The position numbers and the translations under genes were made by a program. Positions 120 to 48,353 of a DNA stretch of 64,000 nucleotides are shown one piece after another. A model generated the notes under the pieces. The model ran no database searches. It had not been told where the DNA came from and saw only the letters and a program-made list of their open reading frames with translations. This DNA is from Terriglobia bacterium (GTDB taxonomy: Bacteria > Acidobacteriota > Terriglobia > Terriglobales > Acidobacteriaceae). The stretch spans positions 62,001-126,000 of the forward strand of contig JAIQFC010000005.1 in the NCBI GenBank assembly GCA_020073465.1. The letters are read 5' to 3'. Within the stretch, counting starts at the first letter, position 1. Each line of letters begins with the position of its first letter.

Positions 120-143
120 CACGGAGGCACGGAGCCACCGAGG
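120..143. repeat. Phased octamer repeat, left arm
   Basis: Three abutting 8-bp units of the form CACGGAGG (120-127, 128-135, 136-143), with one or two changes per unit. The reverse complement of this unit recurs at 296-319, so the two stretches are inverted arms 152 bp apart. Confidence 0.75.
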
Positions 144-295
144 AAAGCGGACTATAGATTATTACGCTGACATTTTTTCAGGCGCGATGCTTCTTGATAT
201 TCATGACTCACCACGGCGCGGAATCGGTTCGCACCAGGTGCGGCACCACTGGAAGGAACACTCACCCGAGGCCGACACAAGAAAGCCCGGCTTGA

Positions 296-319
296 CTCCG
301 TGTCTCCGTGACTCCGTGG
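296..319. repeat. Phased octamer repeat, right arm
   Basis: Three abutting units CTCCGTGT, CTCCGTGA and CTCCGTGG at 296-303, 304-311 and 312-319. They are the inverted counterpart of the units at 120-143 and keep the same 8-bp period. They end 20 bp past the 3' end of the minus-strand TPR gene. Confidence 0.75.
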
Positions 320-339
320 TGAAGAGTGGTGAAGAAAGC

Positions 340-2928
340 CTACGCTACCGCTCCGGCAGCCAGCGCTGCCGCTTCCGCGACAACCTTCCCCGAACCTTGC
401 CCCGTGGAGGTCGCCAGAGCATGCTCCACCCGATTGATGACCTCGGTGACAATGTCGATGGGATCGTACTCGGGACGAATCACCGCCTCAGCCAGTCCCG
501 CAGAAAGCTGGATCGGCGACGCCTTCTCGTCCTTTGCAGGCAGGCGCACCTCGGCGATGACCTTGCGCAGCTTCTCGACCGCCATGATCCCCTCTTTTTC
601 CGACGTGTCCCCAAGAATGATGGCAATGCTCGTCGTGTCGTAACGGAAAGCCAGATCATTCGAGCGGATATTCGCGGCGAACAGTTGCCCAATCTTCTCC
701 ATCGCCGCCCCGACCTCCGCCTCACCGTACTCCTTGATCATGGCCGCACTCTTGCCGAACTGCAGCAGTAGCACCGAAAGCGGAGCTGCATTCTGCGCCG
801 CCCTCTTGCTCTCGGCCAGAAGCAAGTCGATGTAGGAAGCCCGTTTCAGCAGTCCGGACTTCTCGTCCGTCACCGAAAGATTCTTCACCAGCCGCCGCAA
901 CCCTGCATTGTTGAGCGCGATCACCATCTGCTCGGCGACGGTTCTCAGCACCAGTACATCCGATTGCTGCCACACCCGCGGCTTGTTGTGCATGAGCACC
1001 AGCACGCCAACCGGTTCATCGGCGTTGCTCAAGGGAAGTACCAGAATCGATACCGCACCCAACTCCGCAGCCGCCTTCCGTGCCGACTGCAACTGCGATG
1101 CCTTCTGCGCATCCTGCAGGATCAACGGCTCATGCCCGGAAGCCGCTTCTTGCAGGCTCGCGACCACTTCGAACAACGCAGACGGCGTTCCCTTCTTCAC
1201 TCCGTCTGCACAAAACTCCTCCAGCGCGGTCGGCGGAAGTCCCGGCTTCCCCATGGCCGCGATGCAGCGCGTTGCTTCCCAATGTCCGCCAATCTCCTTC
1301 ACCGCCGTGGTCAGCACCGCCGTCGCTGTCCCCTGGTGATACAACTTGCGCGTGATCTCCGCTACGCGAGTAAAGCTTCGAACCTCTGCTGCCGGATCAG
1401 CGGTCGCTGGCGCGGCCGCCGCAGGTGGAGCCGGAACCGTCGCTGCAGGCGGCGCCGCTGGAGGCAATGGCGCCGACCCGGCATAGCGTGGCGTCACCCC
1501 CGCTGACAGGTACAGCCGCTGCAAATCCTCGTTACGTTCCTCCTCCCGTGGAAACAGCTCTTGAATCCTCTGCAGCCGCTCCACTGCCTTGTTGCGCATC
1601 CCGTACTGCACCAGAATTTCCGCCTGCAACATCAGGTCCTGCAATGTCGAAGCCCCCAGGGTTGGCTCGTCCACGTGGGATGGCTCCTCGGCCGGCTTGC
1701 TCGTGGACGTAAAGCGCGCGGCAATCGCCTGGTAGCGCTTCTCGTCGATCTTCCCCTTCAGCATCTCCAGCCGCTTCATGTGGCCGGATTCATACGGATC
1801 CACTTCGGCCGAACGGTCCAGGCACTCCGCCGCCTTGGCAAACTCGCTGGTGCTGCAGTAAAGATCAAAAAGTTTCAGCAGCGTCTGGCAGTAGTCGTTC
1901 TCGCGATTGGACGCGTTATAGAGCTCGCTCAGGAACTCGAGCATGTGCGATGACGCGCGGTGTGCCGCCGTGAGGTCCTGCATGATGGCGATGAACTGCC
2001 GCCGTTCTCCGCGCCGCCGCTGGAATTGTTCCAGCTTGCGGGCCAGGGCAACCGCGGATTCGTCCTGCCCACCATCCAGCAGTTGCCCGACCAGCGCGAT
2101 CACCTGCTGCACTCGAGATGGATTCTGTTCAAACAGCTGCCATACCAACGGCTCAGCCTCGGCATAGCGCCCTGCTGCAACCAAAGCATCCGCGTAGCTG
2201 TCACGCAACTCGACCGTTACCTGTCCCGAGTTGAGCTGCGGCTCAAGGATGAAAATTGCGGCCCCAGCCTGACCCTGGAGCAGCAGGCTCTTCCCATACG
2301 CCAGAGCGACCGCCTGATCAGAAGAGTCTTCCTGATAAGCCCGCTCGTACCATTGCGCCGGATCGCCACCTTCGGTTGCCGCCAACTGCGCCACCCGCTG
2401 GAACGCCCCCGCCGCGACCTTCCGATTCCCCGATTCCGATGCCAGCTCAGCCACGCGCAGGTAGTTCGCTTGCGTCGGTTCCATCGCCACCAGGCGCTCC
2501 AGAATCTCCGCGCACTCCTGCTTCTTCCCCAGCTTGATCAGGTCGGCCAGGGCAGCTTCGTAGGTTCCAACTGCAAGCTTCTTGTTCGACCCCTCCAGCA
2601 ACTGCCCGAAGCGGAACTTCTGCTGCCAGGTTGGACTTCCGTGGCGTGTCAGCTTTTTGTAGGTAAGGCTGGCCCGGGTAGCGTCTCCGGCGCCCACCTG
2701 CCGCTCAAACAGGTCCCCCAAAAGCTGCACTGCTTCCTTGTTCCGGCTCAGGGAAAGACAGAGATCGGCGGCCAGCTGCCGCACTACATCATTCTCCGGA
2801 TCATCGTGCAGGACTTGCAGATACTCTTCCAGCGCGTCGGCCGTCTTACCCTTTTGCAGGAGCTTCTCGGCGCGCTCCACTCGCCGAGCCACCTCAGCGC
2901 GGTCCAGACGTCTTGTGATCTCGGGCAT
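340..2928 (-). CDS. TPR-GAF protein with degenerate GGDEF domain
   Basis: An 862-residue protein when started at the ATG at 2928, where the helical repeat region begins; the frame is open 35 codons further upstream. The first roughly 480 residues are TPR-like helical pairs (for example ALEEYLQVLHDDPEN). A Pro/Ala-rich linker follows, then a GAF-like domain, then a C-terminal domain with the GGDEF fold (SLSVLLLQFG, KLRKVIAEVR, LSAGLAE). The signature reads RYDTTSIAIIL where active diguanylate cyclases have R-x-GGDEF-A, so catalysis is very unlikely. It probably acts as a scaffold or sensor in the cytoplasm; no signal peptide or membrane segment is seen. The function is inferred from domains only. 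Confidence 0.85.
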   Translation of the reverse strand: MPEITRRLDRAEVARRVERAEKLLQKGKTADALEEYLQVLHDDPENDVVRQLAADLCLSLSRNKEAVQLLGDLFERQVGAGDATRASLTYKKLTRHGSPTWQQKFRFGQLLEGSNKKLAVGTYEAALADLIKLGKKQECAEILERLVAMEPTQANYLRVAELASESGNRKVAAGAFQRVAQLAATEGGDPAQWYERAYQEDSSDQAVALAYGKSLLLQGQAGAAIFILEPQLNSGQVTVELRDSYADALVAAGRYAEAEPLVWQLFEQNPSRVQQVIALVGQLLDGGQDESAVALARKLEQFQRRRGERRQFIAIMQDLTAAHRASSHMLEFLSELYNASNRENDYCQTLLKLFDLYCSTSEFAKAAECLDRSAEVDPYESGHMKRLEMLKGKIDEKRYQAIAARFTSTSKPAEEPSHVDEPTLGASTLQDLMLQAEILVQYGMRNKAVERLQRIQELFPREEERNEDLQRLYLSAGVTPRYAGSAPLPPAAPPAATVPAPPAAAAPATADPAAEVRSFTRVAEITRKLYHQGTATAVLTTAVKEIGGHWEATRCIAAMGKPGLPPTALEEFCADGVKKGTPSALFEVVASLQEAASGHEPLILQDAQKASQLQSARKAAAELGAVSILVLPLSNADEPVGVLVLMHNKPRVWQQSDVLVLRTVAEQMVIALNNAGLRRLVKNLSVTDEKSGLLKRASYIDLLLAESKRAAQNAAPLSVLLLQFGKSAAMIKEYGEAEVGAAMEKIGQLFAANIRSNDLAFRYDTTSIAIILGDTSEKEGIMAVEKLRKVIAEVRLPAKDEKASPIQLSAGLAEAVIRPEYDPIDIVTEVINRVEHALATSTGQGSGKVVAEAAALAAGAVA

Positions 2929-3060
2929 GAGTAGGGGACTGACGGAGTAGTCCTCCACCGATTCTAGGAGGCCCCTCCGGCAGCAGCAATGCGGTAACGG
3001 CCGCGCCCGATTACGAAGGTCACTGCGCTCCACCTAGGTTTGCTCCAAAAGGCTTTGTCA

Positions 3061-3087
3061 TTTCCGAACGAAGTGAGGAATCTGCTG
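3061..3087. repeat. Dispersed repeat of the GCGAAGCGAGGAATCTGC type
   Basis: The stretch reads TTCCGAACGAAGTGAGGAAT followed by CTGCTGT. A related copy lies inverted at 38222-38253 and a looser one at 59811-59860. All three are outside coding regions, as expected of a dispersed intergenic element. Confidence 0.5.
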
Positions 3088-3224
3088 TCTGCCGGCAGCA
3101 TCACTGCCCTCGTATCGAGCAGACGTAAAGATGGTTTTGAGCGCTATCGTCTGATTCAAACAGTTACGCCCGTAAGCTGCGAAGAATGCGATGTCGGTGT
3201 CCAATAGCGGTAGGGACAAATGCA

Positions 3225-3796
3225 ATGCCCAAATTGAGGCTCGCAGTTATCCTTCCGATCCTGATCATATGCCTTGATTTCCCAGTTGCACTCTGGCAGA
3301 GCCACGTTGATGCTCAGCAACCTCCGAAGCACGAATATCCCATCGTCTCTACTGTTACATTGGTCTACTTTGGGCTAAACGCGCCAGTGGTGATTTTTAA
3401 GGGGTTGTGTGAAGCAACGCTCCCCATCTACAGGATTGACCATGCTCCGCGCCGACACTATTTGGTATCGGTGTGGGACAGCTTCTGTTCTTCACTGGGG
3501 TTGTCTTGCTCTGGTTCACCGTGGGGTTGTTTCTTGACCGTCGTAGAAGTTCCCAGATGCATCGGCAGACTCCGACGGCTATTTGGCGAGTGCTCGGGAC
3601 TCTATTGCTGCTGGCCTTCGCGATCCTGCTCTTTGGTGGCGGAGTGTTCGTGACGAGACACCGCCCCACGGGAAATCCGGTTGGGGATGTTCTACAGGGC
3701 ATTCTCTTCTTTGGCTGGTCAGTGGTGTTCGTGGTCGCTTCTGCGATGAGGCACGTCGCCACATTATCCTCGAACGCGATCAAAGACCAAACTTAG
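3225..3796 (+). pseudogene. Small membrane protein gene split by a frameshift
   Basis: A first frame starts at the ATG at 3225 with a signal/TM segment (LAVILPILIICLDFPVALW) and continues through VYFGLNAPVVIFK to IDHAP near 3449. The protein-like sequence then moves to another frame (PTLFGIGVGQLLFFTGVVLL, a TM segment, then FLDRRR) and ends at 3796 after two more TM segments. One missing base within CCGCGCCG at about 3447-3454 would join them into one protein of about 190 residues with three or four membrane segments. Read as annotated, the downstream part could also start at GTG 3473. The family is not recognised. Either a real mutation or a sequencing error is possible. Confidence 0.6.
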
Positions 3797-3887
3797 CTGT
3801 TGAAATATCGCCATTCCACTCATTGGCTCGGATCCGCGCCAGCGCCTCGATTTGGGCAATCCGCCTCATCTTTGCTATGGTGCTGCA

Positions 3888-5237: not shown

Positions 5238-5260
5238 TTTTTTTTCTTGTCTGTGTGGTT

Positions 5261-5307: not shown

Positions 5308-5311
5308 GCAC

Positions 5312-9651: not shown

Positions 9652-10343
9652 GCCGTTTTCACCGGCAGTTGACCGCGTTTCTCCGAACTTTCCAGGCCGT
9701 TTTCCGTGTCACCAGCCTGTTTTCTGGAAGCGACAGAATCCGTCATCAGAACCTGTCGACCTTCTCCAGGAGCAGAGCCCCCGGATGGCATGGAATCAGC
9801 AAGCGACTGACCACCGCCCCAGTTGCGTCTCTAATCCAGAAAACCCCTGTATCCGGCAGGGGTTAGCGGCAACCCAACGCCCTCCAAGGCGAGAGAGTTT
9901 AGACCATCCCCTGAGGAAAGAGAAATACTTTGCAGAGTTGGGGAAGGAACCCGCACCTCAGGTCCCTGGGAATCGAATGTCCCTCGAGCCGGCAGCAATC
10001 GAAGTCGGCAATTCGGGCCCCAACCTCAAGGCAGAAACCGGATTGGACAAAGCGGTGGCTGAAGTGAGCAAGGACTCGAGCCCCAAACGGGGCGGCATGT
10101 GAAAGCCCGGCACGGCAGTGCCGGGAAAAGGAGGAAGGCAGAGCGAGTCCCGTAGGGACGGCACAGATTCGCATGCACGGCCACTGCCTGTGACCCAGGC
10201 GGTCGACTGCTCGTCTCTCCTGACGGGCATCCAAATAACTGAGCACTGAACACAAACAGTCAACCGTGGTTGTCCGCCCGTAACTAGCAGCCAGCATTGG
10301 CCCAAGCTACTATCGCGGTTAGGACTTGTCACCGGGAGGAACC
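9652..10343. other. Long intergenic region with palindromes
   Basis: No gene is supported over about 690 bp. A plus-strand frame of 150 codons (9650-10102) overlaps the start of the AAA+ gene in antisense and has no ribosome site or family features. Visible structure: a CCCCTG..CAGGGG inverted repeat near 9844-9863, the hairpin at 10106-10125 and the palindrome at 10147-10159. Confidence 0.6.
10106..10159. repeat. Two palindromes (REP-like)
   Basis: CCCGGCAC (10106-10113) pairs with GTGCCGGG (10118-10125) across four bases. Then GTCCC (10147-10151) pairs with GGGAC (10155-10159) across GTA. The arrangement resembles the other double-hairpin intergenic repeats in this window, but the sequence is different from the GGACAGCC family. 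Confidence 0.55.
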
Positions 10344-13004: not shown

Positions 13005-13039
13005 ACTGAGAATTGAGAACTGACGACTGAGAACTGGTC
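13005..13039. repeat. Phased heptamer repeat
   Basis: Five abutting 7-bp units with core ACTGAGA (ACTGAGA, ATTGAGA, ACTGACG, ACTGAGA, ACTGGTC). The same unit in inverse orientation recurs at 41170-41197. The array ends 12 bp before the ilvE -10 element, so it overlaps the region where a -35 box or activator would sit. Confidence 0.8.
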
Positions 13040-17524: not shown

Positions 17525-17551
17525 CACAGAGGGCACAGAGAACACTGGGGA
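17525..17551. repeat. Phased nonamer repeat, left arm
   Basis: Three abutting 9-bp units with core CACAGAGGG (17525-17533, 17534-17542, 17543-17551). The inverted arm lies at 17615-17641 with a 63-bp spacer. It starts four bases past the PadR stop codon. Confidence 0.75.
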
Positions 17552-17614
17552 ATCCCGGGAACATCGTCGCTCAACCTGGATTACGACCGAAGCCGCCCTT
17601 AAGCCTCTCATTTC

Positions 17615-17641
17615 CTCTGTGCTCCCTGTATCCTCTGTGGT
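17615..17641. repeat. Phased nonamer repeat, right arm
   Basis: Three abutting 9-bp units CTCTGTGCT, CCCTGTATC and CTCTGTGGT, the inverted counterpart of 17525-17551. It ends 33 bp before the recX start. Confidence 0.75.
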
Positions 17642-18912: not shown

Positions 18913-18968
18913 CACAGAGGGCACAAGGAGCGCGGAGGGAGACGCGTTCCTGGTGTCGTCTGTGGTTT
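18913..18968. repeat. Phased nonamer repeat upstream of alaS
   Basis: Three abutting 9-bp units (core CACAGAGGG, 18913-18939) match the array at 17525. A weaker inverted remnant (TGGTGTCGT, CTGTGGTTT) lies at 18951-18968. Confidence 0.65.
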
Positions 18969-23379: not shown

Positions 23380-23390
23380 GGGCGTGAGAA

Positions 23391-23425
23391 TTGTCGATTG
23401 TTGATTTTTGATTGTTGATTGAAGT
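23391..23425. repeat. Phased heptamer repeat upstream of the Rieske gene
   Basis: Five abutting 7-bp units with core TTGTTGA (TTGTCGA, TTGTTGA, TTTTTGA, TTGTTGA, TTGAAGT). It is AT-rich in a GC-rich genome and lies 12 bp upstream of the ATG of the Rieske gene. A similar unit in inverse orientation occurs at 29930-29964. Confidence 0.8.
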
Positions 23426-23462
23426 CCTATGCTAGCATCCGCAGGACTTGGGCAGGGCGGCT

Positions 23463-23532
23463 ACCGCAGGGGCTAAAGCCCTTCGGTCGGCGGTGGGCCG
23501 GTTACCGCAGCGCTGGAAGCGCTGCGCCACCC
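23463..23532. repeat. Double-hairpin intergenic repeat
   Basis: GGGCT/AGCCC (23470-23481) and GCAGCGCT/AGCGCTGC (23507-23525) hairpins, each preceded by TACCGCAG. This resembles the double hairpin found inside moaA at 35907-35984 in layout, not in exact sequence. Confidence 0.6.
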
Positions 23533-23587
23533 AAAAACCACGGTAAGAGCTGTCTAACAGCAATAGTCTCGGGAGCCAACAAGCCCT

Positions 23588-24832
23588 TTGGAATTTCTTG
23601 GCCACTTTCGCAGGCTCACTCCGGTGCAGCGGAACACGTTCATCGCGTGCTTCCTGGGCTGGTCGCTGGATGCCTTTGACTTTTTCATCCTGATCTTCTG
23701 CGTCAACGCTCTCGCGGCTCAATATCAGGCCAAGGTTTCGGAAATCACGGAGGCGATTTTCTGGACGCTGGCGATGCGCCCAGTGGGCGCATTTCTGTTT
23801 GGACTGATGGCCGACCGTTTCGGCCGCCGGCCAACGCTGATGGTCGACATCATCGCGTATTCGGTGTTCGAACTGGCCTCCGCGTTCGCCCCGTCGCTGA
23901 AGGTCTTTCTCATCGTGCGGGCTCTGTTCGGAATCGCGATGGGAGGCGAGTGGGGCGTGGGTGCCGCGTTGGCATTCGAGACCCTGCCGGCCAAGGGACG
24001 TGGATTCTTTTCCGGCCTCCTGCAGGAAGGTTACGTCGTCGGGTATCTGATCGCTGCGTTGGTTTACGGCGCTCTTATTCCAATCGTCGGATGGCGTGGG
24101 ATGTTCGTGATTGGAGCGCTGCCTGCGTTCTTGGTCATTTATATTCGCAGCAAGGTGGATGAATCACCGGCCTGGCTGCAAGGACGTGTGTCGAGAGAAG
24201 CGGAGAATCATCTGGGCAAGGACATTGTTACCCATTTGAGCAGCTTTCTCTTTCTTGTGGCGCTGATGTTCGCGTTCACTTCGTTCAGTCATGGGACGCA
24301 AGATCTTTATCCCACGTTCCTGCAGAAGAATTTGCAGTTCTCGCCGCACACGGTGGGCTTGATCGCCATCATCTACAACATCGGGGCACTGCTTGGGGGA
24401 ATTGTCTTTGGATCATGGTCGGAGCGAATCGGCCGGCGGCGCGCCATTGTCTTCGCCGCGCTGCTTTCGATTCCAGCCATTCCCTTGTGGGCTTACTCCC
24501 ACTCCGTGCCGCTGCTTGCGCTCGGCGGATTCCTCATGCAGTTCATGGTGCAAGGGGCCTGGGGAGTGATTCCCGCGCACCTGAACGAACTCTCGCCTCC
24601 TTCTGTGCGGGGGACATTTCCCGGCCTTGCCTACCAGTTGGGCAACCTGCTCTCGTCGCGAAACGCCGTCCTGCAGGCGAAATTTGCCGAGCGGCGTTAT
24701 GGCGGCAGTTATCCGCCCGTGCTGGGGTGGACCGTGTTGATCATCGCGACCCTGGTAGCTCTGCTTACATTGAGTGGGCCTGAGCGCAGAGGAGCGGACC
24801 TGTCGGATATGAACTCGAATTCATCGCCGTGA
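23588..24832 (+). CDS. MFS transporter, sialate/lactate-permease type
   Basis: 414 residues from TTG 23588, with twelve predicted membrane segments. The loop 2-3 motif GLMADRFGRRPTLMVD and a second copy SWSERIGRRRAIVF are the MFS signatures. The N-terminus FLGWSLDAFDFFILIFCV is typical of the SHS/NanT-JEN1 group that imports monocarboxylates or sialic acid with protons. The start codon is weak and unsupported by a ribosome site. Monocistronic; substrate unknown. Confidence 0.85.
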   Translation: MEFLGHFRRLTPVQRNTFIACFLGWSLDAFDFFILIFCVNALAAQYQAKVSEITEAIFWTLAMRPVGAFLFGLMADRFGRRPTLMVDIIAYSVFELASAFAPSLKVFLIVRALFGIAMGGEWGVGAALAFETLPAKGRGFFSGLLQEGYVVGYLIAALVYGALIPIVGWRGMFVIGALPAFLVIYIRSKVDESPAWLQGRVSREAENHLGKDIVTHLSSFLFLVALMFAFTSFSHGTQDLYPTFLQKNLQFSPHTVGLIAIIYNIGALLGGIVFGSWSERIGRRRAIVFAALLSIPAIPLWAYSHSVPLLALGGFLMQFMVQGAWGVIPAHLNELSPPSVRGTFPGLAYQLGNLLSSRNAVLQAKFAERRYGGSYPPVLGWTVLIIATLVALLTLSGPERRGADLSDMNSNSSP

Positions 24833-28148: not shown

Positions 28149-28188
28149 ATTGACGAATTGGGTAATCGTGTAATTGGGTAATTGACGA
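28149..28188. repeat. Phased octamer repeat, left arm
   Basis: Five abutting 8-bp units with core ATTGGGTA (ATTGACGA, ATTGGGTA, ATCGTGTA, ATTGGGTA, ATTGACGA). It faces an inverted arm at 28225-28256 over a 36-bp GC-rich centre, and begins 16 bp upstream of the dcd start. Confidence 0.85.
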
Positions 28189-28224
28189 AGATCGGGGGCT
28201 GGGTTCCGCGCAACCTCCTGAAGA

Positions 28225-28256
28225 ATTACACAATTACCCGATTACACAATTACTCA
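28225..28256. repeat. Phased octamer repeat, right arm
   Basis: Four abutting 8-bp units with core ATTACACA (ATTACACA, ATTACCCG, ATTACACA, ATTACTCA), the inverse of the units at 28149-28188. Together the arms could fold into a long imperfect stem. Confidence 0.85.
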
Positions 28257-28403
28257 ATCGGAATGCTGGCTGGTTTCTGATACTAGTGTTGCCGAGGGTG
28301 CTTGCCAGTTTACGGGAGAGATGCTCCCGTTGACAATCTCCGTTATCTCCCATAGCATCAATGACTTGAGGCACCATCTTAGGCGCGCTTTCGGGGGGCC
28401 CTC

Positions 28404-28673: not shown

Positions 28674-28689
28674 GAGCGGACCTCCGCTT

Positions 28690-28724
28690 TCGGGCTTCAG
28701 GCTTGCGCCTTCGGGCTTCAGCGA
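28690..28724. repeat. Phased heptamer repeat downstream of hupB-like gene
   Basis: Five abutting 7-bp units with core TCGGGCT (TCGGGCT, TCAGGCT, TGCGCCT, TCGGGCT, TCAGCGA). The same unit recurs, inverted, at 48319-48353. Confidence 0.8.
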
Positions 28725-28839
28725 GTCTGAGATAACACCTAACACAAATCAGCAGACAGCGGCATACTGCAACGCCGTTCTGCGCAAGTCGTAGTAGCAT
28801 CAGACAAAGGCCTCGCATGAATCGAGGCCGAAGGCTCGC

Positions 28840-29929: not shown

Positions 29930-29964
29930 AATCAACAATCAAGAAATCAACAATCAACAATTGT
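29930..29964. repeat. Phased heptamer repeat
   Basis: Units with core AATCAAC: copies at 29930-29936 and 29937-29943, a one-base slip, then further copies to 29964. It is the inverse complement type of the array at 23391-23425 and lies just past the stop of the convergent APC gene (29976). Confidence 0.7.
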
Positions 29965-29975: not shown

Positions 29976-31523
29976 CTATCCGGCTCGTTTCCGCAACTTG
30001 CTGTGGCTCCGGCCGTAGCCGAAATAGATTGCCATCCCCACGATCAGCCAGACGATCAGGCGCAGCCACGTGCTTCCGGGCAGGCTGGCCATCAGGCCGA
30101 GCGAGATGAGGATCCCGAGAATTGGGGTCAGCGGTACCCATTTCCATATCAGCGGCGCTTTGAACGGGCGCGGCAGGTCGGGACGCTTGATGCGCAGCGC
30201 CCACACTCCGGCAGACACAATCACGAATGCCAGCAGCGTCCCAATAGAAGTGAGCTGGCTGAGCACGCTGATCGGCAGCACTCCCGCAAGGATGGCAACG
30301 AAGAATCCCACCACGATCGAAGAGATCCAGGGGGTGCGGAAGCGCGGGTGAACGCGGCCTGCCCACTCGGGCAGCAGTCCGTCGCGCGACATGGAGAAGA
30401 AGACGCGCGATTGTCCGAGCAACATGACCAGCATGGTGGTGGTGAGGCCGGCGAACGTGCCCAGCATGACGACGATGCTTCCCCAACGCACTCCGGTAGC
30501 CTGAATCCCTACCGCGACGGGCGCAGCGGTGTTGAGCGCGGTGTAATTGACGACTCCGGTGAGGGCGGAGCCGAGGCAAACGTACAGCACGGTGCAGATG
30601 GCCAGAGAGCCGAGAATTCCAATGGGCATATCGCGCTGCGGGTTCCGAGCCTCCTGCGCGGCGGTGGAGACGGCGTCAAACCCGATGTAGGCAAAGAAAA
30701 TCACACCGGCGCCGCGGGCAATCCCCGACCATCCAAAAGCGCCGAACGATCCCTGGTTGGGCGGGATGAAAGGATGCCAGTTGGCCGCAGCGACCTGCGG
30801 ATGGCGCAACAGGTAAGCAGTTGCGATCGCGATAAAAGTTAAAACCGTTCCCACTTTGATGAACACAATCAACGAGTTGAAATTCGCGGACTCGCGCACA
30901 CCAATGACCAGGATCAGGGTCATGAGCGCGATGACGAGATAGGCCGGAAGGTCGAGAATGCCGTGCGCCGATGGCAGCTTGGTAGCGTCAACGCCGGCGC
31001 TCGCGAGCTGCGTACCGATGGTGGCGAGCCGCGACCATTGCCCGTTGTAGAGCACCAGCAGAGTGCCAGGAGGGGCGGTGATCTGCGGTGGAAGCTGAAT
31101 GCCGAAACTTTGAAACAGGGCGACGAGGTTGCCGCTCCAGCCCACTGCCACGGACGCGGCACCGAAAGCGTACTCGATAATCAAGTCCCATCCGATAATC
31201 CACGCAAAGATCTCGCCCAGCGTGGCATAGCCGTAGGTGTAGGCCGAGCCCGCGATGGGGATCAGTGAGGCAAATTCGGCGTAACAGAGTCCCGCGAAGA
31301 TGCAGCCGGATCCGGCCAGGATGAACGACAACACAATCGCGGGTCCGGTGAAGCTCGCGGCGACGGTTCCGGTCAGGACAAAAATTCCTGCGCCGATGAT
31401 GGCGCCGATGCCCAACGTAACCAGGTTTACGGGGCCAAGCACGCGGCGAAGGCCGCTTTCGCTTTCGTCACGCGCTTCGGCCAGTAGAAGATCGATAGGC
31501 TTCGTTGCCAGAAAATCGGACAA
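29976..31523 (-). CDS. APC-family cationic amino acid transporter
   Basis: 515 residues from TTG 31523, selected since AGGAGGG lies about seven bases upstream and SDFLATKPIDLLLAEA is the usual N-terminus of this group; the frame extends to 31580. Twelve or more membrane helices. The binding helix reads GIGAIIGAGIFVLTG, and FFAYIGFDAVSTAAQEARNP is the second signature (TM6). This fits the CAT/YfnA subgroup importing basic or neutral amino acids. Monocistronic, convergent with the M50 protease gene. Confidence 0.88.
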   Translation of the reverse strand: MSDFLATKPIDLLLAEARDESESGLRRVLGPVNLVTLGIGAIIGAGIFVLTGTVAASFTGPAIVLSFILAGSGCIFAGLCYAEFASLIPIAGSAYTYGYATLGEIFAWIIGWDLIIEYAFGAASVAVGWSGNLVALFQSFGIQLPPQITAPPGTLLVLYNGQWSRLATIGTQLASAGVDATKLPSAHGILDLPAYLVIALMTLILVIGVRESANFNSLIVFIKVGTVLTFIAIATAYLLRHPQVAAANWHPFIPPNQGSFGAFGWSGIARGAGVIFFAYIGFDAVSTAAQEARNPQRDMPIGILGSLAICTVLYVCLGSALTGVVNYTALNTAAPVAVGIQATGVRWGSIVVMLGTFAGLTTTMLVMLLGQSRVFFSMSRDGLLPEWAGRVHPRFRTPWISSIVVGFFVAILAGVLPISVLSQLTSIGTLLAFVIVSAGVWALRIKRPDLPRPFKAPLIWKWVPLTPILGILISLGLMASLPGSTWLRLIVWLIVGMAIYFGYGRSHSKLRKRAG

Positions 31524-36233: not shown

Positions 36234-36268
36234 GCTTTTGGCTCTTAGCCTTTAGCTCTTAGCTCACC
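36234..36268. repeat. Phased heptamer repeat, left arm, upstream of moaA
   Basis: Five abutting 7-bp units with core GCTCTTA (GCTTTTG, GCTCTTA, GCCTTTA, GCTCTTA, GCTCACC). It begins one base past the moaA start and faces an inverted arm at 36291-36318 over a 22-bp spacer. Confidence 0.85.
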
Positions 36269-36290
36269 TGCGGCGGCATCCTAGCTTCGG

Positions 36291-36318
36291 TTGAGCCAAG
36301 AGCCAAAAGCCAAAAGCG
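36291..36318. repeat. Phased heptamer repeat, right arm
   Basis: Four abutting 7-bp units with core AAAAGCC (TTGAGCC, AAGAGCC, AAAAGCC, AAAAGCG), the inverse of 36234-36268. Confidence 0.85.
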
Positions 36319-38266: not shown

Positions 38267-38296
38267 ATCAGTGGAAATCCGCGTGAATCCGTGGCA
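38267..38296. repeat. Phased decamer repeat
   Basis: Three abutting 10-bp units ATCAGTGGAA, ATCCGCGTGA and ATCCGTGGCA. The same unit occurs in two inverted arms at 40080-40109 and 40129-40158, on the other side of the ETF-QO gene. It is followed at 38309 by the GGGCGCCCGCGCCACAC palindrome also seen at 41205. Confidence 0.8.
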
Positions 38297-40079: not shown

Positions 40080-40109
40080 CACGGATTCACGCGGATCGAC
40101 ACGGATAAC
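40080..40109. repeat. Phased decamer repeat, left arm
   Basis: Three abutting 10-bp units CACGGATTCA, CGCGGATCGA and CACGGATAAC; inverted against 40129-40158 over 19 bp. It lies in the gap between etfA and the ETF-QO gene. Confidence 0.85.
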
Positions 40110-40128
40110 ACCCTCAAGCTATTTTCTG

Positions 40129-40158
40129 ATCCGTGTGTATCCGCGTTGATCTGCGGCG
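40129..40158. repeat. Phased decamer repeat, right arm
   Basis: Three abutting 10-bp units ATCCGTGTGT, ATCCGCGTTG and ATCTGCGGCG, matching the array at 38267-38296 in the same orientation. Confidence 0.85.
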
Positions 40159-40165
40159 ATGAAGT

Positions 40166-41161
40166 TTAGCCTCCCGCTTTCGCCTTCTTCACTTCTTCAA
40201 TCAGTGGCGGGACGATGTCGAACAGGTTGCCGACTACGGCAAAGTCCGCGATCTCGAAGATCGGGGCTTCGGAATCCTTGTTGACGGCGATGATGGTGCG
40301 CGAGCCTTTCATGCCGACGATGTGCTGAATCGCGCCGCTGATGCCGAGCGCGAGATAGAGCTTGGGCGCAACCGTCTGACCCGACGACCCGATCTGGCGG
40401 TCCATGGGCAGCCATCCCGAGTCGCAAATGGGACGCGAGGCAGCGAGGTCTCCGCCAAGGGCGTCAGCCAACTGCTTGGCGATCTCGATGTTCTTCTGCT
40501 CTTTAATGCCGCGGCCCACGGCCACAATGATTTCAGCCTGGGTCAGGTCGACCGCCTGCTTGGCTTCCTTGAAGACTTCCTGCGGCTTGTTGCGGATCAC
40601 GCCGTCGGCGATGTTGACGGCCACGGTCTCAACTGGGGCCGCAGCCGCGCCCGCTTCCGCCTTGTCGCCACGAAAAGCCCCGTTCTGGAAAGTCACGAAC
40701 CACGGGGCGTCGCTGCTGAAACTGACGTCCGCAGCGAACTTGCCCTGAAACATCTGACGCGTGAACACGAGCTTGCCGGCTTCGTACTTGAAGCCGATGC
40801 AGTCGCTGATCACGGCGCGCCCCATAGCGGTCGCGAGCTTGGGGACAAAGTCGCGCACCTGGTAGGTATGCGGCATGATCACCAGCTTGGGCTGCTTCGC
40901 CGTGAGGAACTGCTTCAGCGCGGCGGCGAAGGCGTCAGGAGTGTAGGGCTCAAGCTTCGGAGACTCGACCGCATAGACTTTCGCGACTCTCTTCGCGGCG
41001 ACTTCAGCGGCAAAAGATGCCGCGCTCGCGCCTACTACGGCGGCCTCGAGAGGCCATCCAGTAGCGGCCGCGATGGCCTGGCCCGCGGTAATGGTCTCCC
41101 AGGAGACGCGATTCAGCTTGCCTTCGCGTTGTTCAACAACTACTAAGATGGTATCGGGCAT
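40166..41161 (-). CDS. etfA: Electron transfer flavoprotein alpha subunit
   Basis: 331 residues from ATG 41161; the earlier frame start is in repeat DNA. The alpha subunit binds FAD: the C-terminal domain has the signature VAVGRGIKEQKNIEIAKQLADAL, SRPICDSGWLPMDRQIGSSGQTVAP, then LALGISGAIQHIVGM and VNKDSEAPIF. With EtfB it carries electrons from dehydrogenases to ETF-QO. The upstream 71-bp gap to etfB holds a heptamer array and a GC palindrome in place of a clear ribosome site. Confidence 0.93.
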   Translation of the reverse strand: MPDTILVVVEQREGKLNRVSWETITAGQAIAAATGWPLEAAVVGASAASFAAEVAAKRVAKVYAVESPKLEPYTPDAFAAALKQFLTAKQPKLVIMPHTYQVRDFVPKLATAMGRAVISDCIGFKYEAGKLVFTRQMFQGKFAADVSFSSDAPWFVTFQNGAFRGDKAEAGAAAAPVETVAVNIADGVIRNKPQEVFKEAKQAVDLTQAEIIVAVGRGIKEQKNIEIAKQLADALGGDLAASRPICDSGWLPMDRQIGSSGQTVAPKLYLALGISGAIQHIVGMKGSRTIIAVNKDSEAPIFEIADFAVVGNLFDIVPPLIEEVKKAKAGG

Positions 41162-41169
41162 AAGAGCGG

Positions 41170-41197
41170 TTCTCAGTTCTTGGTTGTCAGTTCTCAG
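41170..41197. repeat. Phased heptamer repeat in the etfB-etfA gap
   Basis: Four abutting 7-bp units TTCTCAG, TTCTTGG, TTGTCAG, TTCTCAG; on the minus strand the unit is CTGAGAA, the same as at 13005-13039. It ends nine bases upstream of the etfA ATG. Confidence 0.85.
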
Positions 41198-41204
41198 AAA
41201 AACC

Positions 41205-42151: not shown

Positions 42152-42202
42152 GTAATCACAGACTGGTGTCGTTCCGTCGGTCAGCATGGCCGAGAGGCTT
42201 TC

Positions 42203-44340: not shown

Positions 44341-44605
44341 AGACCACCGATTGCACGCCGGAAATTTCAAATCGCTTTCTGCAGCGCATGTTCTTGCAGG
44401 CCAGCATGTCATCTTTGCGCAGCATGTAGGAGCGGGCCTTGGCGAAGCGGGCACGGTCACGCTCGTCGGCGCGGCCGGGAAGCTGGCGCTTCTTCGTGCG
44501 GACCACCCAGTTGATTTCGTATTCGCCGGACTGCTGGCAGTGCGGGCAGTTGAGCGTTGCGTTCTTCTTCTCCTGCCGCTCGTCGAAAAAATCGCGCTCT
44601 TCCAT
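44330..44605 (-). CDS. Small zinc-ribbon-like protein
   Basis: 91 residues. Two Cys pairs, CPHCQQSGEYEINW and CKNMRCRKRFEISG, are spaced like a zinc ribbon, with a basic segment between. Its stop codon overlaps the 3' end of the MttB gene by 11 bases on the opposite strand. The family is not recognised; nucleic-acid or protein binding is possible. Confidence 0.65.
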   Translation of the reverse strand: MEERDFFDERQEKKNATLNCPHCQQSGEYEINWVVRTKKRQLPGRADERDRARFAKARSYMLRKDDMLACKNMRCRKRFEISGVQSVVFTE

Positions 44606-44744
44606 AGACAGTCGTTGGTCCCTTCGCCCTGCTCAGGGCAGGCTAAGAACAGTCGTCGATCGTTGGCGAGCCCTTGCCGGCCAGCCGTCAACCCGACTGC
44701 GAACCATGATTATTACAGTTTTGTGACCGACAAGCTATGGCAAC

Positions 44745-44921
44745 ATGGAGGCGATGGCGCGAAAGAAGAAGGCAAAGCGGTTTCGGGCGGTGACCGCCGT
44801 CAAAGAGTTGGCGAGGGAGCGCGTCGGCACGCCTCCGGCGGCAAAGGTTGTTCTGGAGAAAAAGAAGAAACCGGAGAAGCACAAACCGACACTGGGAAAA
44901 CTATTGGGAGAAACGGAGTAA
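44745..44921 (+). CDS. 58-aa Lys-rich protein
   Basis: 58 residues starting MEAMARKKKAKRFRAV and ending LGKLLGETE, with ATG 44745 or the internal ATG 44754. Strongly basic with a helical middle (VTAVKELARERVG) and a Lys-rich stretch EKKKKPEKHKP. No family is recognised; the composition resembles small ribosome-associated or RNA-binding proteins. Too short for normal gene calls; codon use looks like its neighbours. Confidence 0.5.
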   Translation: MEAMARKKKAKRFRAVTAVKELARERVGTPPAAKVVLEKKKKPEKHKPTLGKLLGETE

Positions 44922-44942
44922 TATTCCCGTCACGTGCGGCCA

Positions 44943-45590
44943 TCAGTTGAAAGTTACCGTCACGCTGCGGTCTGCGGTCAAGGAAACAGTACAAGGGTTC
45001 GTACCGACGGGCGAGTCGCAGTTTGTCCAACTCCCAAATGTTGACGGGCTAATCGGAGTGGCAGTTAGTGTCACCGTGGTTCCGGTCGCAAACTGTGCGG
45101 CGCAGGTCGTACCACAATTGATACCGCTCGGAGAACTTGTAACCGTTCCGCTTCCACCTCCGCTGGTGGTTACCGTCAACGTATTCAAGGCACCTCCCGT
45201 TGGGCACCCCAGACTGGCAGGGCCATCCACGGTGATGTTTGCGGTATTGCTGACCACGAGATTGCCGCCATCGTTGAACGTGGCGAATACTCCAGCCGTG
45301 CCGCAATTCAGGTTGGGGCTAACCACCCCAGCGCTGCTGACCTGGGCGACCTGCGGGATGTCGGATTGCCAGGTAACCTGAGTTGTGATGTCTTTGGTCT
45401 GCGGTGGGTGAGTATAGGTTCCGAAAGCCTTGAAGTTCGCCGACAGGGACGGGTCAACCGCGCCGAACTCAACCCCGGAAGGTTGCACTGATATGGACGT
45501 AAGGTGCCGGTTGTGGGCGCAGCTTGACAGGCTGACCAGCACGCTTGCGGCGAGGCTGAGGGCGGCAATGCTGAACCACTTCCGGGTCAT
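44943..45590 (-). CDS. Lipoprotein with Ig-like and InlB-type repeats
   Basis: 215 residues. Lipobox in LVSLSSCAHN. The first half has a bacterial Ig-like pattern (SISVQPSGVEFGAVDPSLSA, TWQSDIPQVAQVSSAGVVSP). The second half has a divergent InlB B-repeat-like motif with paired cysteines (SGTVTSSPSGINCGTTCAA, GTTVTLTATP, FGSWTNCD). It is surely exported and probably acts in the envelope or in adhesion. Convergent with the 58-aa gene. Confidence 0.75.
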   Translation of the reverse strand: MTRKWFSIAALSLAASVLVSLSSCAHNRHLTSISVQPSGVEFGAVDPSLSANFKAFGTYTHPPQTKDITTQVTWQSDIPQVAQVSSAGVVSPNLNCGTAGVFATFNDGGNLVVSNTANITVDGPASLGCPTGGALNTLTVTTSGGGSGTVTSSPSGINCGTTCAAQFATGTTVTLTATPISPSTFGSWTNCDSPVGTNPCTVSLTADRSVTVTFN

Positions 45591-45734
45591 CGACGACTCC
45601 TGGGAGCTGGAGATGCAGATAGATGCTTCTCCGCGGGGGAAGGGTCAATTTAGTCAATGGTAGGGCAAAAAGCAAGCGCTACGCGGGACAAGGAGCAAGG
45701 GAGTAGCGGGGCGGGCAACCGGGCAACGTGGCTC

Positions 45735-45780
45735 ATGTGGGGACAGCCGCCCCCGGCTGTCCGGCCGGGCAAAGCCCGGC
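45735..45780. repeat. Double-palindrome repeat, GGACAGCC type
   Basis: GGACAGCC (45741-45748) pairs with GGCTGTCC (45755-45762); GCCGGGC (45764-45770) pairs with GCCCGGC (45774-45780). Nearly identical to the element at 5261-5307. Confidence 0.8.
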
Positions 45781-45809
45781 AGGCGGTCAGGTAAGACGAG
45801 CGGCGCTCA

Positions 45810-46856
45810 TCACTCGACTGCTTCCGCGACAAACCGGGCGAACTCCCTCACGTCCTCTTCCGTCGTATCAAAGGAACACATCCAGCGTACGATCGATTCT
45901 TCCTCGATCCACATGTAGAAGAAGTACCGCCCTTTGATCTTTTCGACGGCGTGGCTGGGAATCTTGGCGAAAACGCCGTTGGCTTCGACTTTCCACACGA
46001 CCTGCACTCCCGGGATAAGGCTGATCTCTTTTTCCAGCAGGCGGGCCATGTGGTTGGCGTGCTCGGCACTGCGGCGCCAGAGATCGTTGGTCAGCAGCGC
46101 TTCAAACTGCACCGCGATGAAGCGCATCTTGGAGGCGAGTTGCATGCTTTGCTTGCGCAGGTAGAGAAAATCCGTGCTCAGCTGGCGGTTGAAGAAGACG
46201 ACAGCCTCGCCGCCCATGATTCCGTTCTTGGTGCCGCCGAAAGAGAGCACGTCCACGCCCAGGTCGCGCGTGGCCTGGCGCAAGGTCTGGCCCTGGCTGA
46301 CGGCGGCGTTGGCGATGCGGGCGCCGTCCATGTGCAGAAACATTCCCCGCTCGTGGGCAAAGCGGGCAAGAGCTTGAATCTCCTCCGGTTTGTAAACCGT
46401 GCCCATCTCCGTCGACTGCGTGATGGAGATGACACGGGCCTGCACGTGGTGCTGGTCGCCGATGCCGTGGTAAGCGTGGCGGACAGAGTCGACGGTGATC
46501 TTGCCGTCCTGATGCGGCAACGGGATGAGTTTGCAGCCGGTGTGCTTTTCGGGGGCGCCGCATTCGTCGGTATAGATGTGCGCGTAGTCACTGCAGAGCA
46601 CGGCGTGGTAGCTACGATTAAGAGCTTGCAGGCTGAGAACGTTGGCGCCGGTGCCGTTGAAGGTAAAGAAGACGTCGATGTCGGGGCCGAAGTGTTCCTC
46701 GAACTTCTGAATGGCGCTGCGAGTGTAGGGATCGTCCCCATAGGCAACGACGTGGCCCTGATTCGCCCGGCCGATGGCTTCGAGGACTTCGGGATGGATG
46801 CCGGCATTGTTGTCGCTGGCGAAGCTGCGGGAGGGTTGGTTCAGGCCTTGCTGCAT
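45810..46856 (-). CDS. Low-specificity threonine aldolase
   Basis: 348 residues from ATG 46856; the frame is open far upstream over what looks like non-coding DNA. Fold-type I PLP enzyme that cleaves L-threonine/allo-threonine to glycine and acetaldehyde. RSFASDNNAGIHPEVLEAI is the N-terminal signature, STEMGTVYKPEEI and HMDGARIANAA hold the PLP aspartate, and the lysine is in SFGGTKNGIMGGEA. Cytoplasmic tetramer in the family. Divergent from the RND adaptor gene. Monocistronic. Confidence 0.9.
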   Translation of the reverse strand: MQQGLNQPSRSFASDNNAGIHPEVLEAIGRANQGHVVAYGDDPYTRSAIQKFEEHFGPDIDVFFTFNGTGANVLSLQALNRSYHAVLCSDYAHIYTDECGAPEKHTGCKLIPLPHQDGKITVDSVRHAYHGIGDQHHVQARVISITQSTEMGTVYKPEEIQALARFAHERGMFLHMDGARIANAAVSQGQTLRQATRDLGVDVLSFGGTKNGIMGGEAVVFFNRQLSTDFLYLRKQSMQLASKMRFIAVQFEALLTNDLWRRSAEHANHMARLLEKEISLIPGVQVVWKVEANGVFAKIPSHAVEKIKGRYFFYMWIEEESIVRWMCSFDTTEEDVREFARFVAEAVE

Positions 46857-47082
46857 ATAGCGCAACAATGTAGCAGAGTGGAACCACGAATGCAGTGTGC
46901 CGGGCCTGCATGCGATCCGGCGGTGAAGGGTTTTCTTGTGTTCTGCGCCGTTGTAAGAATCCTTACAGTGGCGCCTACCGGCGCATTCGTGGGTGCGTCC
47001 AATATGGGTTGGGGCGCTTTCACAGAGATCCGAACTCGGGTACAGTACTAGGGGCCAGAAAGAGCCCGACCAAATTAAGTTC

Positions 47083-48192
47083 ATGAAAAGCAATCTTGGT
47101 AGACATCCGGCTCCCGCCCTCCTGCTCACGGGACTGGCCGTCCTTGCCACGACCCTGGGTTGCTCGAGCAAGGCGACGCAGAACGCACAAGCGGGGGGCC
47201 CTCCCGCCATGCCGGTGAAGGTGCAGGAGGCGCGGGCAGTACCGGTGAACGATGCCAGCGACTATGTCGCCACCGTGAAGTCGCGCGATTCGGCCGTCAT
47301 CATGCCCCAGGTGGAGGGCCAGATTATCCAAATCTACGTGCACTCGGGGGACCGGGTTGCGGCCGGGGCTGCGCTCATGGAGATCGATCCCTTGAAGCAG
47401 CAGGCCACGGTGAAGAGCCAGGAAAGTGCCAGGGCCGCGCAACAGGCGACGCTGAGTTGGTCGAAGCAGCAGTATGAGCGCGCCCAGGGGCTGTTTTCGG
47501 CCGGCGTGGTCAGCAAGCAGGACTTGGACCAGGCCAAGGCCGCTCTGGACGCGGCGCAGGCGCAGATGGAAGCGCTCGACTCCCAGGTGCGCGAGCAGGA
47601 AGTGCAACTCCATTACTACAAGGTGGTTGCTCCTCGCGAAGGAATTGTGGGCGACGTCCCGGTGCGCGTAGGAGATCGAGTCACGACCTCCACGCAACTG
47701 ACTACGGTGGACCAGCCTGGAAGCCTGGAAGTGTACGTCTACGTGCCCATTGAACGCTCGGCACAGCTCAAGATGAATCTGCCGGTGCAGGTGGTCGACA
47801 GCGAGGGCAAGGTGCTGGTCAGCACTCGCGTGACCTTCATTTCCCCGCAGGTCGATAACACGACTCAGACGGTGCTGGTCAAGGCTCGCGTCCCGAACAG
47901 CAATGATGCGCTGCGGCAGTCGCAGTTCATACGGGCGCGAATCATATGGGGCACGCATCAGAATCCCCAGGTTCCGATCCTCGCCGTGTCACGGTTGGCC
48001 GGACAATATTTCGCGTTTGTCGCCGAGCCGCAGAATGGTGGCTCGTACCGGGCGAAGCAAAAGCCACTGAAGATTGGACAGACGATCGAAAATGATTACG
48101 AAATCCAGGACGGGATCAAGCCGGGCGATAAGGTGATCGTCTCGGGAACGCAGTTCCTGCGCGATGGCGACCCCGTAATACCGCAGAGCTAA
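47083..48192 (+). CDS. RND efflux adaptor lipoprotein
   Basis: 369 residues from ATG 47083. Lipobox in LATTLGCSSK. Membrane-fusion architecture: barrel-sandwich halves around AVIMPQVEGQIIQIYVHSGDRV and VVAPREGIVGDVPVRVGDRV, a coiled-coil hairpin (AARAAQQATLSWSKQQYERAQ to AQAQMEALDSQVREQE), and C-terminal beta-barrel domains. It links the permease with an outer-membrane channel in the periplasm. The permease gene follows after 166 bp holding heptamer arms; no TolC-like gene is present. Confidence 0.9.
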   Translation: MKSNLGRHPAPALLLTGLAVLATTLGCSSKATQNAQAGGPPAMPVKVQEARAVPVNDASDYVATVKSRDSAVIMPQVEGQIIQIYVHSGDRVAAGAALMEIDPLKQQATVKSQESARAAQQATLSWSKQQYERAQGLFSAGVVSKQDLDQAKAALDAAQAQMEALDSQVREQEVQLHYYKVVAPREGIVGDVPVRVGDRVTTSTQLTTVDQPGSLEVYVYVPIERSAQLKMNLPVQVVDSEGKVLVSTRVTFISPQVDNTTQTVLVKARVPNSNDALRQSQFIRARIIWGTHQNPQVPILAVSRLAGQYFAFVAEPQNGGSYRAKQKPLKIGQTIENDYEIQDGIKPGDKVIVSGTQFLRDGDPVIPQS

Positions 48193-48196
48193 GAGT

Positions 48197-48217
48197 GGGC
48201 TTCGGGTTTCGGCTTTT
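48197..48217. repeat. Phased heptamer repeat, left arm
   Basis: Three abutting 7-bp units GGGCTTC, GGGTTTC, GGCTTTT just past the adaptor stop. Inverted against 48319-48353 over 101 bp. Confidence 0.75.
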
Positions 48218-48318
48218 AAGTCGCAGTTTCTTAACAAGAGTACTTGGCAGTGGTCGTCTGGCGCGAGCCAGATGACGGCGGTGCCGCCTCAGAGATTCTT
48301 CGTTAGCCAAAGTGTTTT

Positions 48319-48353
48319 AGCCGAAGCCTGACGGCTGAAGCCCGAAGCCCGAT
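48319..48353. repeat. Phased heptamer repeat, right arm
   Basis: Five abutting 7-bp units AGCCGAA, GCCTGAC, GGCTGAA, GCCCGAA, GCCCGAT, ending five bases before the permease ATG, so they take the place of a usual ribosome site. The unit is the inverse of that at 28690-28724. Confidence 0.85.

Follow-up and report, generated by a model that had tools for sequence, protein, structure and literature searches.

In Geobacter metallireducens, paired opposite-strand sites built from the tandem units GTTGCTYN, TCTCCGTS[Y] or MTYCTGA were described in 2009 and are read there as putative sites of a global regulator, proposed to be of the IHF/HU type (PMC2700814). The intervening sequence (IVS) of the Coxiella 23S rRNA, which contains an S23p open reading frame (ORF), carries tandem GACAGAT heptamers just upstream of the ORF (PMC4990558). 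Direct TAACTGA repeats occur in Beggiatoaceae, Cyanobacteria and Bacteroidetes; mobile elements or a mobile repeat-binding protein have been suggested by their author as possibilities, and the term S23 is absent from the paper (PMC4679880). Here, a stretch of 64,000 nt from the genome of a Terriglobia bacterium (Acidobacteriota; assembly GCA_020073465.1, contig JAIQFC010000005.1, positions 62,001 to 126,000 of the forward strand), referred to as the window, has been analysed for thirteen intergenic arrays of 7-, 8-, 9- or 10-nt units. These arrays are very probably the arms, or the surviving single arms, of small intergenic cassettes that are mostly empty.

In a complete cassette, a single small gene would be flanked on the left by an arm of short tandem units and on the right by the inverted complement of that arm. 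The position would be intergenic, in most cases directly beside the stop codon of an adjacent gene. Two classes are proposed; class I with 7-nt units and an S23 gene, and class II with 8-, 9- or 10-nt units and a GxxExxY gene. Loss of the gene would leave an empty inverted pair, as in most copies, and the additional loss of an arm would leave a solo array, as in many.

Unit length and cargo genes

The unit length tracks the class of the cargo protein, being 7 with S23 and 8, 9 or 10 with GxxExxY. The cargo of class I is an S23-type four-helix-bundle protein (PF05635), that of class II a GxxExxY protein (PF13366), which is PD-(D/E)XK-like. The source genome (G000; 5.9 Mb in 67 contigs) gave six matches to PF05635, representing five genes (one in two pieces), and all five are flanked by inverted heptamer arms. 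PF13366 likewise gave six matches; of the five loci examined, three are flanked by significant arms of 8- to 10-mers, L033 shows repeats, judged by eye, on a single side, and the fifth has none.

For the genus, arms had to beat all 20 shuffles, and loci with short flanks (six for PF05635, five for PF13366) were excluded. Significant inverted arms have been identified at 26 of the 28 scored S23 loci, with period 7 in all 26, and at 23 of the 29 scored GxxExxY loci, with period 8 in nine, 9 in seven, 10 in five and an unclear period in two. A scan of named genomes with an S23 alignment provided a cross-phylum set; the 80 best loci were kept, which by record title belong to many phyla, and 77 of them were scorable. 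Arms are present at 62 of these 77, with period 7 in 48, 8 in eight, 9 in two, and 6, 10, 11 or unclear in one each. Phylum-wide GxxExxY loci are armed in 24 of 28 cases (period 8 in seven, 9 in nine, 10 in five, 12 in one, unclear in two), and period 7 occurs at no armed GxxExxY locus of the genus or phylum set.

As a control, a stand-in gene of 310 bp was shifted within the same loci, which gave 23 pairs in 292 cases, two of them periodic; the real genes, scored with the 400-bp flanks of the control, are armed in 27/28, 56/64, 24/29 and 23/25 loci. In both classes the nearest protein relative shares its period more often than under permuted labels (0/5000). The initial annotation had described the unit length as variable but locus-fixed and had found nothing in the coding annotation to explain the arrays. 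The latter holds inside the window; genome-wide, copies that retain a gene combine 7-mers with PF05635 or 8-, 9- or 10-mers with PF13366, and the unit length, far from arbitrary, is tied to the protein class. Since it goes with protein class, helical phase is not the organising variable, and DNA bending has been rejected as the organiser.

A separate observation concerns a genome of another family of the phylum (G140, loci L412-L431), where a larger repeated element is present in at least 18 nearly identical copies. Their consensus comprises a class II arm pair and a shortened GxxExxY gene, and two further loci, L430 and L431, match the full-length family. A cassette seems to have been captured by an insertion sequence and amplified along with it.

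Codivergence and exchange at the dprA-topA site

Arms and proteins change together. At 26 S23 loci of the genus, protein distance is correlated with arm-unit distance (Mantel r 0.55, 0 of 5000 permutations), and the same is found for the 15 non-topA loci (r 0.60) and the 11 topA loci (r 0.80) taken separately (0/5000 each). The gap between dprA and topA, the domains of which were confirmed, was compared in 30 genomes; an S23 gene on the topA strand is present in 26 of them, with heptamer arms in 25 of these 26. Among 22 genomes, the S23 protein follows the arm unit (r 0.64, 0/3000) and not topA (r 0.03), and topA does not follow the arm unit either (r -0.04). The distances of topA and of a B12-binding gene are correlated (r 0.71), therefore host distances are informative. 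Vertical inheritance of the dprA-topA cassette has been rejected, as S23 and the arm unit fail to track the host.

Genomes G004 and G016 illustrate this, with host genes 4% apart and S23 proteins 41% apart. Their DNA is closely alignable as far as the last dprA codons and once more after the end of the right arm, and between these breakpoints the arms and genes are different, as is the dprA stop codon. The dprA-topA gap is a fixed site of cassette exchange. From these sequence comparisons, arm and protein appear to act as one unit exchanged between hosts.

Empty forms and placement

Stages of degradation have been found at the same site. G033 retains both arms, has no gene and keeps a C-terminal S23 remnant (23 residues, E 3.7e-7), G036 has one array, and G006 and G038 have none by eye. 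The empty pairs and solo arrays at dprA-topA are degraded cassettes, and the inverted pairs of the window belong to the empty kind. The gap before the B12-binding gene, compared in 30 genomes, has CACAGAG-type ends directly after the stop codon in most of them, and a GxxExxY gene in G000 and G018 only.

The position of the arms is strongly biased. For class I, the stop codon of the 3' neighbour lies within 20 bp of the arm in 30 of 30 cases (median -2; the topA site accounts for 11 of the loci), and a neighbour ends within 20 bp on 7 of 24 five-prime sides. The corresponding values for class II are 16/23 three-prime and 10/23 five-prime. Divergent gaps hold 1 of 27 class I and 1 of 23 class II loci, compared with 42 of 231 background gaps of the source contig. 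The S23 loci of the genus sit between protein genes and not in the 23S rRNA helix; none of loci L118-L350 held any of seven 23S motifs, which is a weak test.

Recurring conserved blocks, GTAGTAGCATC, GTGCTAGCTTC or ATGCTAGCAT, were also noted before the start codons in gaps upstream of topA, an M50 peptidase gene and a major facilitator superfamily gene of the genus. They may be promoter elements.

Arrays in the window

Each locus was scored at its claimed period and compared with 500 dinucleotide shuffles of its surroundings; gene boundaries were taken from a simple in-house caller. All thirteen arrays of the initial annotation are present, and the claimed period is the best among periods 5-13 at twelve of them. 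They are listed below, the fraction at the end of each line giving the shuffles that match the score at the same period.

120..319 (arms 120-148 and 290-318): inverted octamer pair of CACGGAG+N, without intact cargo; GxxExxY class; 0/500
13005..13039: solo heptamer array of ACTGAGA, the right-arm form of CAGTTCT, the unit of S23 cassette L119 (contig C55 of the source genome); 0/500
17525..17641 (arms 17525-17552 and 17612-17639): inverted nonamer pair of CACAGAGGN, beginning 5 nt past the stop of the upstream gene (gene end 17520), with arms matching GxxExxY cassette L031; GxxExxY class; 4/500
18913..18968 (arms 18913-18934 and 18943-18964): short inverted pair with CACAGAG-type ends, non-periodic alone; 159/500
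23391..23425: solo heptamer array of TTGTTGA, adjoining the start of a minus-strand Rieske-domain gene (Pfam); 0/500
28149..28258: inverted octamer pair of AATTGGGT/AATTACCC, in a gap flanked by a dCTP-deaminase-like gene and an HU gene (Pfam); 0/500
28690..28724: solo heptamer array of TCGGGCT, 17 nt past the HU gene stop; 5/500
29930..29964: solo heptamer array of AATCAAC, 12 nt from the end of a minus-strand gene at 29976; 0/500
36234..36318 (arms 36241-36266 and 36292-36317): inverted heptamer pair of GCTCTTA / AAAGCCA; 0/500
38267..38296: solo decamer array of ATCCGCGTGA, a GxxExxY-class unit, as in L034; 11/500
40080..40158: inverted decamer pair of CACGGATNNN / ATCCGTGTGT, 8 nt from the stop of a minus-strand gene at 40166; GxxExxY class; 2/500
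41170..41197: solo heptamer array of TTCTCAG, the left-arm form of CAGTTCT, again the L119 unit; 1/500
48197..48353: inverted heptamer pair of GGGCTTC / GAAGCCC, 5 nt past the stop of a HlyD-like gene, with a spacer of about 120 nt and without intact cargo; 0/500

The arrays of the window are real and beyond chance. When any period of 5-12 is permitted, the loci at 28690, 41170, 17525, 38267 and 40080 are matched by 15-84 of 500 shuffles, therefore these five are weak alone and lean partly on their partners and relatives. The locus at 18913-18968 lacks a periodicity of its own, being matched by 484/500 shuffles at any of these periods; it is a significant inverted pair, and its left end is nearly identical to that of 17525. 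Seven inverted pairs have been identified (120, 17525, 18913, 28149, 36234, 40080 and 48197), one more than had been counted, and each was equalled by 0/500 shuffles.

The autocorrelation of the intergenic DNA of the window, the check that had been suggested for these arrays, gave z values of 3.4, 1.7, 3.9 and 1.8 at lags 7, 8, 9 and 10, respectively, and of 3.8 at lag 14. Lags 3 (z 3.9) and 6 (z 3.2) are also raised, which is probably due to unmasked coding DNA.

The units tie several loci to cargo genes found elsewhere. Those of the 120-319 arms also flank GxxExxY genes in the genus, and those of the type at 48197-48353 flank the S23 genes L134 and L138. A search of the window spacers for cargo remnants gave nothing beyond a weak GxxExxY similarity in the 120-319 spacer (tblastn E 0.005).

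The comparison of orthologous gaps, likewise called for at the outset, has been made and gave mixed outcomes; unit turnover at gap 28674-28839, where other species have other 7-mer units at the position of the 28690 array, conservation of 38267 and 48197 in G027, and absence of the 40080-40158 pair from G027. The array at 23391-23425 has related arrays in the orthologous gap of G027, G014, G001, G018, G022 and G004. The same gap (23380-23623) holds CACAGAG arms in G011, G022, G004 and G001, and by eye none in the other relatives shown; the heptamer array is older than the adjacent CACAGAG arms. The right-arm array of the 28149 pair is present in G011, G022 and G004 and degraded in G027.

The 36234-36318 arms sit between a molybdenum-cofactor riboswitch (RF01055, 36347-36523, minus strand; Rfam) and the radical-SAM (S-adenosylmethionine) molybdenum-cofactor gene (Pfam) that it precedes, and are largely conserved in G027. 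They occupy the position of an expression platform. Two further RNA features of the window were noted in Rfam.

10079..10125, minus strand: Acido-Lenti-1 RNA (RF01687)
61846..61939, minus strand: selenocysteine tRNA (RF01852)

Array abundance on the contig and across genomes

Intergenic arrays with a score of at least 8 were counted on 346 kb of the contig of the window (C47) and compared with the shuffled mean. An excess has been found for 7-mers (46 vs 2.2), 8-mers (12 vs 2.2), 9-mers (6 vs 1.0), 10-mers (9 vs 1.8), 11-mers (8 vs 2.2) and 12-mers (6 vs 1.6), and none for 5-mers (3 vs 2.8), 6-mers (4 vs 3.0) and 13-mers (0 vs 2.0). No 7-mer array was present in 100 kb of E. coli K-12, taken as two pieces of 50 kb. 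The recurrence of units between loci, proposed earlier, is borne out by the L119 unit at 13005 and 41170 and extends along the contig, the repeatedly found units including CAGTTCT, CACGGAGN, AATTGGGT, CAGTGGT and GAAGCCC. Within one base of the unit of a resident S23 cassette are 28 of the 46 heptamer arrays of the contig, the share for random intergenic 7-mers being 10.9%.

The density of 7-mer arrays per 100 intergenic kb is 6, close to background, in both G042 and G008, which have no PF05635 match, 24 in G033 (one weak match), 30 in G035 (8 matches), 57 in G000 (6) and 115 in G001 (10). Pieces of 11-60 kb from 18 further relatives gave 0 to 162 arrays per 100 kb and are too short to rank. 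Across 45 genomes, class II pattern counts are correlated with GxxExxY matches (rho 0.64), and CAGTTCT dimers with S23 matches (rho 0.43) and with GxxExxY matches (rho 0.28, p 0.065).

Arm anatomy and cassette proteins

Class I arms of the genus (52 arms) have a median of 4.43 units; 20 lie at 4.4-4.7 units, which corresponds to five 4-nt cores spaced 7 nt, 25 are shorter and 7 longer. Left and right arm units differ by 0.42 mismatches within a locus and by 2.82 between loci. The initial annotation was right in that each locus keeps one unit length, common to its two arms. The class II arms consist, by eye, mostly of three units with ACC outermost, and the GxxExxY-class unit looks like a 7-nt core (e.g. 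CACAGAG) plus 1, 2 or 3 bases. Cassette L119 has about 22 nearly perfect CAGTTCT units in each arm, possibly a recent slippage expansion. On the strand of the gene, the mismatches of S23 arms are purine-purine in 129 cases and pyrimidine-pyrimidine in 69, an excess that may reflect strand composition.

The S23 cargo matches PF05635 and TIGR02436 (E 3.5e-35). Its relatives with solved structure, 2gsc and 2rld, have five chains each, and the Xanthomonas S23p structure is cited as a homopentamer ring (PMC4990558). The ratio of non-synonymous to synonymous substitutions (dN/dS) is roughly 0.04 over 7 close pairs, which points to purifying selection. Identity with the Avd protein of diversity-generating retroelements was considered and rejected, as L119 scores 27.4 bits on NF033474 against a cut-off of 80, a distant similarity only.

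The structure predicted for GxxExxY (predicted local distance difference test score, pLDDT, 95.4) has PD-(D/E)XK nucleases as its fold neighbours, namely the Cas4-type SSO0001, lambda-type exonucleases and a homing endonuclease domain. Among these, SSO0001 scores best (E 0.021) and none reaches 0.001; a comparison with PDB sequences gave no relatives. On the basis of the model, the protein would be PD-(D/E)XK-like, with no closer assignment.

Proposed mechanism and alternative explanations

Taken as a whole, two cassette classes, their relics and an arm-reading protein probably form the best explanation of the arrays. It is backed by the class-length rule, by codivergence, and by exchange at one site with junctions at the arms and degradation stages at that site; the link of S23 gene number to array density has been seen in few genomes. 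The tandem units of an arm would form a ladder read by the protein of the same cassette, a step towards which we lean with some reserve. For S23, whose solved relatives appear as rings with repeated subunits, the ring might bind the arm with one subunit per unit; this detail is speculative, and under it the unit length would be fixed by the protein, and both arms would be alike, because each unit is bound by one subunit. Binding to the arms would spread or maintain both cargo-bearing and empty copies, in cis and in trans.

On a tentative and broader view, the cassettes could represent an unnamed class of bacterial mobile elements, i.e. fold-back cassettes whose ends are binding ladders for a self-encoded ring protein, one unit per subunit. 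Two versions are envisaged; in one, S23 rings would sit on ladders of about five heptamers, and in the other, GxxExxY nucleases would sit on ladders of three units of 8-10 nt. Each genome would contain hundreds of empty copies, which would fill the 3' ends of genes. The same system would also encompass, as parts of it, the 23S IVS, the Geobacter paired sites and the heptamer arrays known from other phyla.

Several results weigh against the cassette explanation. (i) The link between S23 and density comes from six partly sampled genus genomes, two without a match and one 86% complete. Class II pattern density also rises with S23 matches (rho 0.48, 45 genomes), and for the 17 of 45 genomes without a GxxExxY match the median is still 5.8 class II hits per Mb, vs 13.4 for those with a match. 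Part of the density correlation is general load or genome quality; as class II hits persist without the gene, relics outlive it. (ii) Significant arms are missing at 6/29 and 4/28 GxxExxY loci and 15/77 S23 loci, just 3/5 GxxExxY loci of the source genome itself score for arms, and with period 8 at 8/62 armed S23 loci, period 7 is not universal. Five units per class I arm is the mode only. (iii) Neither a transposase nor a true empty site has been found, and no target duplication was seen, the flanks being too diverged to show one; the sites stay occupied across the genus, which fits a host function too, and host distances at the topA site cover a narrow range. (iv) Within the window, the 28149 pair has no class, and the loci at 13005, 23391, 28149 and 36234 lie on the 5' sides of genes. 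(v) The between-arm mismatches of both classes have no sense-strand bias of G.U vs A.C (103 vs 86, p 0.24; 42 vs 57, p 0.16), a result that speaks neither for nor against RNA pairing of the arms.

The alternative that survives best, though we hold it to be unlikely, is host regulation. The arrays would be binding sites or transcript-end hairpins, S23 and GxxExxY regulators or RNA- or DNA-processing factors, and the flanking arms a means of self-regulation instead of the ends of a mobile unit; the reading of the Geobacter pairs as putative regulator sites is another form of this view (PMC2700814). Arms at stop codons, their scarcity in divergent gaps and the many sites common across the genus agree with it, as do the apparent purifying selection on S23, the array density that follows S23 genes in the few sampled genomes, and the 36234-36318 pair, well conserved in G027 between a riboswitch and its gene. 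However, at dprA-topA neither the protein nor the arm unit tracks the host, and the two were swapped whole between close hosts; empty forms hold cargo remnants, and one site with different units per species is odd for a conserved regulon. A host role and the cassettes are compatible, as relics can be co-opted, and some of them, for instance the arms next to the molybdenum-cofactor riboswitch, may have a regulatory or transcript-end role.

Neutral mutation alone, with slippage and hairpin-templated repair making and homogenising arrays that the gene families just tolerate, is very improbable; it would account for arms that are homogeneous within a locus and for the expansion of the L119 array to about 22 units, but not for unit lengths that divide strictly between the two protein classes, the codivergence of unit and protein, the units shared by distant phyla, or the near absence of 7-mer arrays from E. 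coli, G042 and G008. Least credible of all are palindromes of the repetitive extragenic palindrome (REP) or REP doublet (REPIN) kind moved by Y1 transposases of the REP-associated tyrosine transposase (RAYT) type, since, although the genome has 18 PF01797 matches and plain inverted repeats, an expected feature of REP-type systems, flank seven of the nine scored Y1 loci (L036-L043, L045), none of the nine is periodic and no array unit recurs in Y1 arms.

If the cassette explanation is correct, S23 four-helix-bundle and GxxExxY proteins, both widespread and without known role, gain a candidate substrate in the repeat units on either side of their own genes. Geobacter paired sites, Beggiatoa heptamers and rRNA intervening sequences would then share one explanation, and much of the intergenic short-repeat clutter of these Acidobacteriota is accounted for by cassettes. 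A ring protein that reads a DNA or RNA ladder with one subunit per unit and codiverges with it would offer many natural protein-ladder pairs for decoding specificity.

Comparison with known systems

The REP/REPIN-RAYT system consists of many short, palindromic, gene-less copies dependent on a protein whose gene lies at another place in the genome, and in this respect it resembles the empty pairs; in contrast, the arms described here are made of tandem units and their proteins are not Y1 transposases. The inverted ends of the foldback (FB) transposons of insects are also made of short tandem repeats, like those of the window pairs, but these elements are eukaryotic and much longer, and we know of no relation between them and the cassettes. 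A resemblance to miniature inverted-repeat transposable elements (MITEs) lies in terminal inverted repeats without an intact gene and in the existence of related gene-bearing copies. Cyanobacterial short tandemly repeated repetitive sequences (STRRs) are intergenic tandem heptanucleotides, and their choice as the nearest idea was a fair one; the heptamer loci of the window fit this definition, whereas the 8-, 9- and 10-mer loci do not.

The TAACTGA repeats are similar in that intergenic heptamer arrays are scattered across distant phyla. They differ in having one unit sequence, in being direct and mostly just before start codons, and no partner protein is identified for them (PMC4679880). The Coxiella IVS shares with the class I cassettes a small S23p gene between complementary, stem-forming ends. 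Unlike it, the cassettes lie between protein genes, both of their arms are heptameric and most copies are empty, the arrays of the window being cargo-free; in the Coxiella paper, the GACAGAT heptamers are treated as local variation (PMC4990558).

The closest likeness to the window pairs, seven in number, is found in Geobacter, where opposite-strand tandem units of 7, 8 or 8/9 nt lie at variable distance and TCTCCGTS matches the unit at 120-319. The statement that no described element has such units is therefore not upheld, since the Geobacter pairs have 7-, 8- and 9-nt units (PMC2700814). No cargo gene is mentioned for these pairs in the accessible part of that report, where they are read as IHF/HU-type sites, and, apart from the Coxiella heptamers, none of the literature searched, with subscription papers outside its scope, links such arrays to genes of the S23 or GxxExxY families. 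Paired sites and heptamers were thus already known, and what is new here is the joining of the arrays to S23 and GxxExxY genes as two classes of cassette.

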